Shown: positions 1,324 through 4,064 of the stretch, in pieces
How the letters are laid out: each line of letters starts with the position of its first letter
Position numbering within the stretch: the first letter of the stretch is position 1
From: Mycobacterium kubicae
GTDB taxonomy: Bacteria > Actinomycetota > Actinomycetes > Mycobacteriales > Mycobacteriaceae
Direction of reading: 5' to 3'
Assembly (NCBI RefSeq): GCF_015689175.1
Contig: NZ_CP065047.1
Span: 1,302,001-1,366,000, forward strand
DNA length: 64,000 bases
Position numbers and translations under genes: made by a program
The notes under the pieces: generated by a model
The model's database searches: none
The model's input: only the letters and a program-made list of their open reading frames with translations
What the model was told of the DNA's origin: nothing

Positions 1324-2489
1324 GCCTGGTCGACAGCACCGAGTCGTGGCTTGCCGCCCACTACGACGACCTGGTCGCGTGGCGCCGGCACATCCACCGC
1401 TACCCCGAACTAGGTCGGCAGGAGTACGCCACCACCCAGTTCGTGGCCGAACGGCTGGCCGAGGTCGGACTCAACCCCAAAGCATTGCCCGGCGGTACCG
1501 GGCTGACCTGTGACTTCGGCCCCGAACACCAGCCGCGGATCGCGCTGCGCGCCGACATGGACGCGCTGCCCATGGCCGAGCGCACCGGGGCGCCCTACGC
1601 CTCGACGATGCCCAACGTCTCGCATGCCTGCGGTCATGACGCGCACACCGCGATCCTGCTGGGAACCGCGCAGGCGTTGGCGGCGGTGCCCGAATTGCCG
1701 GTCGGGGTGCGGTTGATCTTCCAGGCCGCCGAGGAGCTGATGCCCGGCGGCGCCATCGACGCGATCGCGGCCGGTGCGCTGTCGGGGATCTCCCGAATTT
1801 TCGCCCTGCACTGCGACCCGAGGCTGGAGGTCGGCAAGGTCGCCACCAGGCACGGCCCGATCACGTCGGCGGCCGACCGGATGGAGATCACGCTGTACTC
1901 ACCCGGCGGGCACACCTCACGCCCGCACTTGACCGCCGACCTGGTCTACGGGCTGGGGACGCTGATCACCGGAGTGCCCGGGGTGTTGTCGCGTCGTCTC
2001 GACCCGCGCAACAGCACGGTGCTGGTGTGGGGTGCGGTCAACGCGGGGGTCGCCGCCAACGCCATTCCGCAGACCGGCGTGCTGGCCGGGACCGTGCGCA
2101 CGGCCAGCCGGCAGGCCTGGGTCGACCTCGAGGACATCATCCGCGAGGCCGTCGACGCGCTGCTGTCGCCGCTGCGGATCGAGCACACACTGAGCTACCA
2201 CCGCGGGGTCCCGCCGGTAGTCAACGAGGACGTCTCGACCCGCATCCTCATTCACGCGATCGACGCCCTGGGCCCCGACGTGCTGGCCGACACCCGCCAG
2301 TCCGGCGGCGGCGAGGACTTTTCCTGGTATCTGGAGGAAATCCCCGGCGCCATGGCCCGCCTCGGGGTGTGGTCGGGCGAGGGCCCGCAGCTGGACCTGC
2401 ATCAGCCGACGTTCGACCTCGACGAGCGGGCGCTGGGCATCGGGGTGCGGGTGATGGCCAACATCGTCGAGCAGGCCGCCAAGTTCTAA
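1320..2489 (+). CDS. amiA1: M20 family amidohydrolase AmiA1
   Basis: A 389-residue paralogue of the preceding gene, M20D family. Signature motifs are RADMDALP (77-84), SHACGHDAH (101-109) and FQAAEE (134-139, catalytic Glu pair), all intact, so it is probably an active metal-dependent N-acyl-amino-acid or aminoacyl hydrolase. The frame is open well upstream, but the ATG at 1320 is chosen because it overlaps the amiB1 stop as ATGA and places the family start motif correctly. A palindromic repeat begins directly at the stop codon and may act as a 3' hairpin. Confidence 0.9.
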   Translation: MSLVDSTESWLAAHYDDLVAWRRHIHRYPELGRQEYATTQFVAERLAEVGLNPKALPGGTGLTCDFGPEHQPRIALRADMDALPMAERTGAPYASTMPNVSHACGHDAHTAILLGTAQALAAVPELPVGVRLIFQAAEELMPGGAIDAIAAGALSGISRIFALHCDPRLEVGKVATRHGPITSAADRMEITLYSPGGHTSRPHLTADLVYGLGTLITGVPGVLSRRLDPRNSTVLVWGAVNAGVAANAIPQTGVLAGTVRTASRQAWVDLEDIIREAVDALLSPLRIEHTLSYHRGVPPVVNEDVSTRILIHAIDALGPDVLADTRQSGGGEDFSWYLEEIPGAMARLGVWSGEGPQLDLHQPTFDLDERALGIGVRVMANIVEQAAKF

Positions 2490-2557
2490 CCCGCGAGCGT
2501 GCGTGTCTGTACAGCGACACGCCGCTGCGGCTGACATTCTGCGCACGCTCGCGCGGG
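2490..2557 (+). repeat. Palindromic element, left copy of an inverted pair
   Basis: An imperfect hairpin of 68 nt. The outer arms, CCCGCGAGCGTGCG at 2490-2503 and its complement at 2542-2557, pair over 14 bp with a 2-nt bulge. Inside is a second palindrome, TGTCTGTACAGCGACA (2504-2519), with TGTC/GACA arms around TGTACA. A near-identical copy lies in the opposite orientation at 3484-3550; the first 34 nt are identical and the whole matches at roughly nine positions in ten. It starts at the amiA1 stop codon. It looks like a REP-type or MITE-like element; its family is not known to me. Confidence 0.8.
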
Positions 2558-2597
2558 TGAATTGTGGGCCGCTCGCGGCGCCCCGACCATAGCCCGC

Positions 2598-3479
2598 ATG
2601 AATACCGGGCTCACCCACCTGTTAGAGACCCAAGGTGGCGTCGTAACCTGCGCGCAGGCGCTCACCTTCCTGACCCGGCGCGGGCTCGAGGAGCAGCTGA
2701 GAACGGGTGCGCTGCAAAAGGTTTGGTACGGCGTATACGGTCGCGGCGACGTGACCACCGAGTTGCGGCTTCGCGGACTCGACCTGGCCGCCGGCAAAAC
2801 CGTCGCGGCCTGCATGGGAACCGCTGCCGCGGCGTACGGCTTCGACACCGAACGAACCGCCGATGTGCACGTGCTCAATCCGGGTGGAAGTCAATTGCGA
2901 TCGGCCGACGGGCTGGTTGTGCATCGGCGTACCGGCGCGCCGTTAACCGTGGTCGGCGGGCGACTCCTCACGGCTCCGGCGTGGACGGCGATCGAGGTGG
3001 CGCGCGTGCTGCGCCGGCCGCGAGCACTCGCGACGCTGGACGCGGCGCTGCGCAGCGGCACGTGCAGTCGAGCCGAACTGGGGCTGGCGATCAAGCAGCA
3101 GTCCGGTCGCCGGGGCATCGTGGCCGCACGCGAATTGCTCAGCCTGGCGTCGCCGCTGGCCGAGTCACCGATGGAAAGCGAGGCGCGGCTGGTCATGATC
3201 GACGGCGGCTTGCCGCAACCGGTCCTGCAATACGAGATCGTCGACACGCAGGGCCGGCTTTGGCGACTCGACTTCGCCTGGCCCGAATTCCGGTTGGCAG
3301 CCGAATACGACGGGGTCGACTGGCACAGCGGTCCGCAAGCCTTCCTTCGTGACCGTCGGCGCGGCGCAGCGCTGCAGGACCTGCGCTGGGTGGTCGTGCC
3401 GATTGTGGCCGAGGACGTGCGGTACCGGCCGCAGGAACTGGTCGATCGTCTGGCGACGCGACTGCAACGAGCCGCATGA
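2598..3479 (+). CDS. AbiEi antitoxin-like winged-helix/DUF559 (Vsr-like nuclease fold) protein
   Basis: A protein of 293 residues. The first ~50 residues resemble the winged-helix domain of AbiEi-type antitoxins (GGVVTCAQAL, then a VWYGVYGRGD strand). The C-terminal ~80 residues resemble DUF559, a restriction-endonuclease-like fold related to very-short-patch repair nucleases: LDFAWPEF (224-231), AAEYDG with E236 and D238, WH, then RDRRR and a WVVVPI strand. The D225/E236 pair could be catalytic. The start is ATG 2598; an in-frame codon at 2562 lies almost against the left repeat. No toxin gene is adjacent. The gene sits alone between two inverted palindromic repeats, which suggests a mobile cassette. 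Function is unproven. Confidence 0.7.
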   Translation: MNTGLTHLLETQGGVVTCAQALTFLTRRGLEEQLRTGALQKVWYGVYGRGDVTTELRLRGLDLAAGKTVAACMGTAAAAYGFDTERTADVHVLNPGGSQLRSADGLVVHRRTGAPLTVVGGRLLTAPAWTAIEVARVLRRPRALATLDAALRSGTCSRAELGLAIKQQSGRRGIVAARELLSLASPLAESPMESEARLVMIDGGLPQPVLQYEIVDTQGRLWRLDFAWPEFRLAAEYDGVDWHSGPQAFLRDRRRGAALQDLRWVVVPIVAEDVRYRPQELVDRLATRLQRAA

Positions 3480-3483
3480 CCTG

Positions 3484-3550
3484 ACCGCGAACGTGCGCAG
3501 AATGCCGGCCGCGACGGCGTGTCGCTGTACAGACACGCACGCTCGCGGCC
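3484..3550 (-). repeat. Palindromic element, right copy of an inverted pair
   Basis: Inverted counterpart of the element at 2490-2557. Read on the minus strand it begins CCGCGAGCGTGCG, contains TGTCTGTACAGCGACA, and ends GCGCACGTTCGCGG. Differences from the left copy are clustered in the loop after ACACGCCG and at one base of the distal arm. It begins 4 nt after the stop codon of the nuclease-like gene, so the two copies bracket that gene tightly. Confidence 0.8.
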
Positions 3551-3556
3551 AAACGG

Positions 3557-3584
3557 CGGCAGAAGGCGGCAGAAGCGGCAGAAG
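3557..3584 (+). repeat. Short tandem repeat, CGGCAGAAG x3
   Basis: Three copies of CGGCAGAAG at 3557-3565, 3567-3575 and 3576-3584, the first two separated by a single G. The array fills the gap between the right palindromic element and the stop codon of the minus-strand glutamylcyclotransferase-like gene. It could be a site of slippage variation. Confidence 0.7.
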
Positions 3585-4064
3585 CTAGGACGAGGTGCCG
3601 GGGCCGATGTTGCGGGCCGGGCGGGTCCGCAAATCGTGCACGTAATCCTCTGGCGCACCGGCTATTTCAGCGGCGTCGGCCATCACCCCGAGATACCGCG
3701 CCGACGGCAGCCCGCCCTCCCAGGCGTCCAGCACATACAGCCAGGCCAGCACGGGATCGGTGGTGGTGTCCGACGACAACCGCTCGACGCGGCAGCGGAT
3801 CTTCTTGTGCACGCCGAACTCCGAGCCCTCCCACTGGTCGAGATTGATCTCGTCGGCCGGCGTCATGTCGTAGAGGACGACGAACACCTTGGAATCGGGG
3901 TCCTCGACGACCGTCGCCAGGGCCCCTTCCCAGCCGATGTCCTCGCCGCCGAAGGTCAGCCGCCAGCCGTGTAACCAGCCGGTTCCGGCCATCGGGGAGT
4001 GGGGTGCCCGCTTGAGCATCTGCTCGGGATGCATGTTCGACCCGTAGGCGGCGTAGATCGGCAC
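3585..4064 (-). CDS. Gamma-glutamylcyclotransferase-like protein (Rv3304 homologue)
   Basis: A 159-residue cytosolic protein with the YGSN motif (7-10) that binds the gamma-glutamyl substrate in GGCT/AIG2-like folds, followed by GWRLTFGG. Family members release 5-oxoproline from gamma-glutamyl amino acids or peptides, but this subgroup has no assigned substrate. Length equals that of the M. tuberculosis homologue as I recall it. The gene is divergent from lpdA. Confidence 0.75.
   Translation of the reverse strand: MPIYAAYGSNMHPEQMLKRAPHSPMAGTGWLHGWRLTFGGEDIGWEGALATVVEDPDSKVFVVLYDMTPADEINLDQWEGSEFGVHKKIRCRVERLSSDTTTDPVLAWLYVLDAWEGGLPSARYLGVMADAAEIAGAPEDYVHDLRTRPARNIGPGTSS

Follow-up and report, generated by a model that had tools for sequence, protein, structure and literature searches.

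The closest described systems to the locus reported here are REPtrons, in which repetitive extragenic palindromic (REP) elements are paired with REP-associated tyrosine transposases (RAYTs). In the sections of PMC8049555 and PMC3733652 cited here, short palindromes are dispersed near gene 3′ ends, the enzyme gene is flanked by cognate repeats, the enzyme is vertically inherited and the repeats are mobile. Enzyme and repeat co-evolve, according to the cited part of PMC8266576. The locus in question lies in a 64,000-nucleotide stretch of the 6.0-Mb genome of Mycobacterium kubicae (positions 1,302,001–1,366,000, hereafter the window) and comprises a nuclease gene between two inverted palindromic elements. 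It is probably one unit of a REP-like system that is run by a nuclease of unrelated fold. Our comparisons of genome sequences show that clades of this nuclease in mycobacteria have their own ~60-nt palindromes as inverted flanks, and that these palindromes also lie scattered as single copies at gene 3′ ends. The system is REP-like by behaviour and not a member of REP/RAYT, because the defining HUH enzyme was tested for and not found: PF01797 had no match in the source genome, and a resident RAYT of this family was rejected. Unlike RAYTs, the flanked enzyme combines an AbiEi fold with a Vsr/EDxHD-type fold. Moreover, the element ends carry no conserved tag of the REP/RAYT kind. In 18 elements of the window's own family (36 ends), GTAG was found at none and CGTC at 5; for 40 GAGCAGAC-type palindromes, the values were 2 and 1 of 80 ends. 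REPs with the CGTC tag are apparently without a dedicated transposase (PMC3733652, cited section).

The left element (2491..2553, + strand) and the right element (3486..3548, − strand) are each 63 nt long, are 92% complementary in inverted orientation and are spaced 932 nt apart. The left one has the outer arms CGCGAGCGTGCG/CGCACGCTCGCG and an inner hairpin (GCGTGTC..GACACGC); the right one is its inverted copy. The nuclease gene (2598..3479, + strand, 293 amino acids) starts with ATG and ends with TGA at 3477–3479. The left element begins 1–2 nt past the stop codon of the upstream M20-peptidase gene and ends 44 nt upstream of the nuclease start codon. The right element follows the nuclease stop codon by 6 nt as aligned; the 4 nt given in the first-pass annotation hold if the element is begun 2 nt earlier. 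The same annotation had described two near-identical opposite elements around a single gene, each of them a hairpin, and the alignment and folding bear it out. When the DNA folding of each element was compared with 200 shuffles, z was −3.88 for the left and −2.80 for the right. The 32-nt left part of the element was found at two places in the window when up to 3 mismatches were allowed, and in none of 100 shuffles. An Rfam scan of 2300–3800 in the window gave a single match (Ms_AS-1, E 0.52), which was below the gathering score and off the elements, and a known Rfam element was rejected on these grounds.

The arrangement recurs in related nuclease genes. Flanks of 350 nt were compared for 96 mycobacterial loci (7 of the source genome, 29 top hits and 60 fetched), with an inverted match score of 25 as the threshold. 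An inverted flank element was shared in 83 of the 96 loci, compared with 1 of 840 control spans, which were taken with the same geometry from other parts of the 60 fetched loci. Stricter scoring, applied since some long matches in the wider sets crossed coding or low-complexity stretches, gave 71 of 96 loci and 0 of 840 control spans. The fetched loci (60 from the genus and 20 wider) were picked by us from the best rows of ranked lists and are not random. Downstream, the element occurs as regularly as it does upstream, lying within 30 nt of the match end in 72 of 80 loci (80 of the 83 entered this count). Inverted elements of this kind, often of different sequence, thus adjoin most of the relatives sampled in the genus. 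The first-pass annotation would have counted it as a refutation had DUF559 genes elsewhere never adjoined the repeat, which is not the case. In a named-locus set from another collection, 75 of 80 loci had an inverted flank match; this set is the best 80 of 323 loci and overlaps the 96 in species and probably in loci, so it is not independent. Eight of its 76 outer-arm controls passed, and all eight were convergent stretches of one coding family, not palindromes.

Homologs of the nuclease were present in all 118 genus genomes sampled. The source genome itself holds six more, with 32–36% identity. Three of them have their own inverted repeats, unrelated to those of the window: L033 (1443–1500/2379–2436), L036 (1229–1323/2371–2465) and L037 (1380–1441/2388–2451). 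The other three (L032, L034 and L035) were below the flank-match threshold. By eye, L035 has shorter repeats on both sides.

Two large groups stand out in the flanks: elements of the GCGAGCGTGCGTGTC type and palindromes of the GCGAGCAGACGCA type. The inner stems of the GCGAGCAGACGCA type include AAATCGCAC, AAAGCCCCC, AAATGTCCCC, AAACCCGTAC and AAAGGGCCGC, and the stems to the left and right of a gene mostly match. The right element of a gene was the best match of its left element in 47 of 83 loci and was among the best three in 63 of 83. Over the 83 loci with a score of at least 25, protein identity followed element similarity (Mantel rho 0.71, 0 of 999 permutations). We also ran exact searches with two patterns in the 118 genomes, where one palindrome may count twice, once per strand. 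The ten genomes whose enzyme carries one of the two element types had 3–59 exact matches of their own type and none of the other. The genomes of the AAGCCCCC-flanked enzymes L149–L152 (G080, G045, G074 and G121) had 59, 21, 31 and 47 matches of their own pattern. For the AATCGCAC-flanked enzymes L125, L126, L131 and L134–L136 (G078, G001, G052, G116, G054 and G114), the numbers were 6, 3, 5, 10, 7 and 11. Both patterns read backwards gave no match in any of the 118 genomes. Sixteen other genomes have fetched GAGCAGAC-type enzymes, and 12 of these hold neither pattern (hand count). By these comparisons, palindrome and nuclease change together, and the element type differs between enzyme clades and tracks them.

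Solitary copies are found throughout the source genome. A 71-nt query of the element matched 22 places at E ≤ 4.6e-6, and the next match was at 0.2, so the repeat is not confined to this locus. A first guess at a pattern for the element had given matches at chance level. An alignment of 18 copies gives ccGCGAGCGTGCGTGTctGtaCagcGACACGCCG..gccG.cattCtGCGCACgcTCGCg, and conservation does not extend into the flanks. A coding-like stop codon lay within 100 nt of 48 of 50 solo copies, and within 25 nt of nearly all of them, compared with 10.4% of random positions (n=2000). The 50 are those with 300 nt on both sides; 16 come from the 22 places of the window's own element and 34 from 39 places of the AAGCCCCC type. 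The repeats are therefore extragenic and near gene 3′ ends, mostly outside a promoter position. With respect to the adjacent gene, 7 solo copies had the same and 6 the opposite orientation (hand count, with 3 convergent cases left out), which is no clear bias. Nor did a hand tally of the 22 places indicate a clear bias in replication strand. In a compensation test on the inner 8 pairs of 37 elements, the value was 4.92, above the 3.73 for re-paired halves and the 4.68 that was the highest of 1000 shuffles; the effect is modest, and the search pattern had already fixed one half of each element.

A stem-loop family of similar size has been described in the same genus: Myt-1 of M. tuberculosis (72 bp) is dispersed and is tabulated as 75(70) without comment, and no associated enzyme is named in the cited part of that paper (PMC2267715). 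By this description, and not by sequence, Myt-1 may be related to the GCGAGCAGACGCA palindromes.

Orthologous sites of the solo copies were filled, empty or of another type. At one junction (L006), 6 of 29 genomes carried an element of the window's general type. G124 and G007 had a AGATGTCC variant there, like the one beside their own nuclease (L078 and L079). The rest comprised one remnant, one GAGCAG-type palindrome, six gaps of 29–46 nt and, in the others, other palindromes or genes. Among the other palindromes at this junction were GGGCGCGGTTTCGTGCG and TTTGTGTGCGCTTAGGAGC types in L170, L174 and L180 (G009, G004 and G013), at the same place past the stop codon. At a second site, G007 was filled (AAGCCCCC type) and G124 was empty, with a 661-nt left flank of 94% identity. 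G074 had an AAGCCCC type at this site, and G010, G116, G017 and G052 had AATCG(C)-like types. An element of the window's general type was found in G016, and G110 and G117 had the GTCCCCGG type, as beside the nuclease of G110 (L122). At a third site, 10 of 14 genomes, including the source genome, had palindromes with differing inner stems. The source genome (G000, L327) has an orphan GAGCAGACGCAGAATCGCAT palindrome at this third site, and its own homologs include no close relative of the clade with such palindromes. Given these differences from genome to genome, the palindromes turn over while the gene ends stay the address. In the draft genome G007, several contigs (L210, L211, L212, L216 and L217) end within ~1 kb of palindromes, as if hairpins break the assembly; copy counts in drafts may therefore be low.

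The protein assignment made in the first-pass annotation, AbiEi-like plus Vsr fold, also stood. Residues 1–185 match AbiEi antitoxins and residues 188–293 match the Vsr/I-Bth0305I nuclease fold, and the 293-residue protein models as one fold joined to the other. Profile scans were less informative. The only Pfam match of the protein was REase_MTES_1575, below threshold (29.4 vs 38.2 bits), an NCBIfam scan gave one match far under the cut-off, and a sequence search against solved structures gave one match at chance level. In precomputed Pfam data, the homologs listed had PF09407, mostly together with PF18741. Six residues (E193, D225, E236, D238, H243 and D252) were invariant across 54 sequences and are candidates for the residues of an EDxHD active site. 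The protein shares the AbiEi fold with the AbiEi antitoxin of type IV toxin–antitoxin systems (6y8q, Rv2827c), but unlike it carries its own nuclease domain. A plain AbiE toxin–antitoxin operon was rejected: the three neighbour genes tested, an M20 peptidase upstream and an AIG2-like gene followed by a pyridine nucleotide-disulphide oxidoreductase downstream, did not include an AbiEii (DUF1814) toxin gene. The Vsr-like nuclease fold is shared with Vsr endonuclease and with the EDxHD homing endonuclease I-Bth0305I. Homing enzymes drive their own reading frame (PMC3943268, cited section), whereas here the gene is mostly stationary and the short flanking element is dispersed. According to that review, I-Bth0305I dimerises on nearly 60 bp, which fits the element of ~60 nt.

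The nuclease gene mostly stays in place. L089 and L145 were set aside for a stop codon within the matched frame, and the other 94 of the 96 loci were assigned to 23 contexts. Of the 121 pairs with at least 75% identity, 110 shared their context, in line with the vertical inheritance reported for RAYTs (PMC8049555). L120 and L121 are exceptions, 87% identical and in different places; their positions suffice to show, by sequence comparison, rare moves of the gene. The junction of the window was read by us in 24 genus loci. The nuclease gene was present in 9, and 6 had only 24–41 nt between the neighbours. The remaining loci had one remnant element, one solo element beside another gene, one unrelated palindrome and, in six cases, other genes. 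The unrelated palindrome is TTTGCCCGCCTC...GAGGCGGGCAAA in G010 (L040). A nuclease homolog was also located between the same two neighbours, M20 peptidase and AIG2-like, in another family of the order (f14; L254, L255, L260 and L271). In a further family (f16; L239, L243, L246, L249 and L256), an AIG2-like gene was close to the nuclease homolog. On inspection, the repeats of the f14 and f16 loci had nothing in common with those of the window. From its distribution, the gene is old at the M20-peptidase/AIG2-like address, and the repeats changed around it. Because the gene is mostly stationary and has the same address in another family, junctions without it may be losses. The first-pass annotation had proposed a possible REP-like mobile cassette and had named empty sites in related strains as prospective support. 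The parallel with REP/RAYT is strongly supported by solitary copies, flanked relatives, cognate co-variation and filled vs empty solo sites. The gene cassette as a freely mobile unit is not supported; empty sites were found for solo copies, and species that lack the cassette at its junction may well have lost it.

Beyond the genus, homologs were found in 174 of 200 genomes of the order. In other families of the order, 18 of 31 loci had an inverted flank match with stricter scoring (31 of 33 loci, as L246 and L253 were too short), with sequences quite different from those of the window. Examples are GATCATGAAGTTCGGG-like elements in L239, whose protein is from Blastococcus, and L249, and GTTGATCAAGGAGTTTG in L263 and L264. 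Beside the homolog in L255, L261 and L271, the repeats resemble short units arrayed head to tail (CGTGTTGCGGA, GTCCGTCACGTATGTCC and ATCACGCGTGTCGTCC), not single palindromes. In the phylum, homologs were found in 73 of 246 genomes. An inverted flank was detectable in 7 of 25 distant loci (L272, from the same order, and L274–L297), and in 5 of 25 by stricter scoring. Because few distant loci have an inverted flank, the pairing is, on present alignments, a feature of part of the protein family. A viral carrier was rejected: of 25 pattern matches in viral_contigs, none encodes a relative.

We infer cutting and spreading of the palindromes by the protein, and with them every catalytic step. The AbiEi-like winged-helix part would bind the palindrome, probably as a dimer on two half-sites, and the Vsr/EDxHD-type domain would cut or nick it, either as a duplex or as an extruded hairpin. 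Through host repair, the palindrome would then be copied into gene-end breaks and would overwrite older palindromes. In the outcome, the palindrome type of the resident nuclease would take over. The nuclease gene itself would rarely move and would mostly be kept in place by descent, as RAYTs are.

Hairpins are common at gene 3′ ends, and similar ones could be located near unrelated genes by chance or as shared terminators, functionally unlinked to the nuclease. This has next to no probability given the 83 of 96 loci compared with 1 of 840 control spans, and it was rejected on the shuffles, these controls, the Mantel test and the dissociation of the patterns, including the backward ones, in 118 genomes. 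The main rival is that the palindromes are transcribed 3′-end hairpins, such as terminators or mRNA stabilisers, with the protein as a cognate regulator or RNA processor and the spread of hairpins incidental. It is unlikely, since by itself it does not account for a gene with an inverted copy at either end, for copies dispersed with unconserved flanks, for the lack of a clear orientation bias or for the empty orthologous sites. The position does not discriminate, because the REPs of known RAYT systems also adjoin 3′ ends (PMC3733652, cited section).

It is less probable still that the AbiEi part represses its own gene via the flanking palindromes, with the dispersed copies as decoys that determine how much of a harmful nuclease is free. 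AbiEi proteins do autoregulate through inverted repeats (PMC7319586, cited section), and the left element ends 44 nt before the start codon, but a single operator would do, the downstream copy is just as regular, and few of the copies at gene ends are placed where a promoter would be. We consider it very doubtful that another enzyme, for example a resident HUH (RAYT/IS200) transposase, spreads the palindromes with the nuclease gene as a passenger. REP elements are known RAYT substrates (PMC8266576, cited part), but PF01797 (Y1 transposase), the only transposase family searched, was unmatched in 12 of 15 element-bearing genomes, the source genome included. Moreover, a passenger gene leaves unexplained why the palindrome type follows the nuclease clade.

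Several results weigh against a REP-like system driven by the nuclease. No movement was seen, and every comparison is of different species. Only one junction pair (G007/G124) is close enough to look for a target-site duplication, and by eye none was evident there; at another G007 site, both species are filled. The nuclease gene is mostly stationary, 13 of the 96 loci, including three paralogs of the source genome, were under the flank threshold, and most distant loci have no detectable inverted flank. The pairs in the Mantel and partial tests are non-independent, and ancestry is shared among related loci. The domain test was weak inside the clade to which the window's nuclease belongs (partial r ≤ 0.18, run without L087). 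In the other four of the 16 genomes with fetched GAGCAGAC-type enzymes, matches of the two patterns were found without a type-identical enzyme among the fetched loci: G006 (8 and 11), G023 (11 and 0), G107 (9 and 1) and G089 (0 and 2). G067 has 23 and 1 copies, and its best homolog is at only 1.2e-24. Finally, the source genome has the orphan palindrome at the third solo site without a type-identical nuclease.

With these points included, the REP-like reading remains our preferred one. The wider proposition is evenly balanced in our judgement: an independent class of palindrome drive in mycobacteria and other Actinomycetes, in which a homing-endonuclease-type enzyme fused to an AbiEi module amplifies its own ~60-nt palindrome at gene ends. 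Enzyme and palindrome would have co-diversified into many mutually specific pairs, and unrelated repeat families would share one kind of author. Among the matches listed in the open-access literature, within which the search was made, none describes such a pairing of nuclease and palindrome, and the letters of the palindromes appear, in two papers, only as primer parts in the text matched.

HUH transposases are the enzymes to which REP-type repeats have been linked until now. In the present case the partner is a nuclease without homology to them, and the palindromes that go with it are scattered over mycobacterial genomes. Where they adjoin gene ends, they may affect termination or mRNA ends. 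If the proposed system is true, the origin of these repeats would be explained, and many natural enzyme–target pairs with long recognition sites would be at hand. It would also provide a second and independent setting in which to ask why mobile enzymes persist so long once domesticated.
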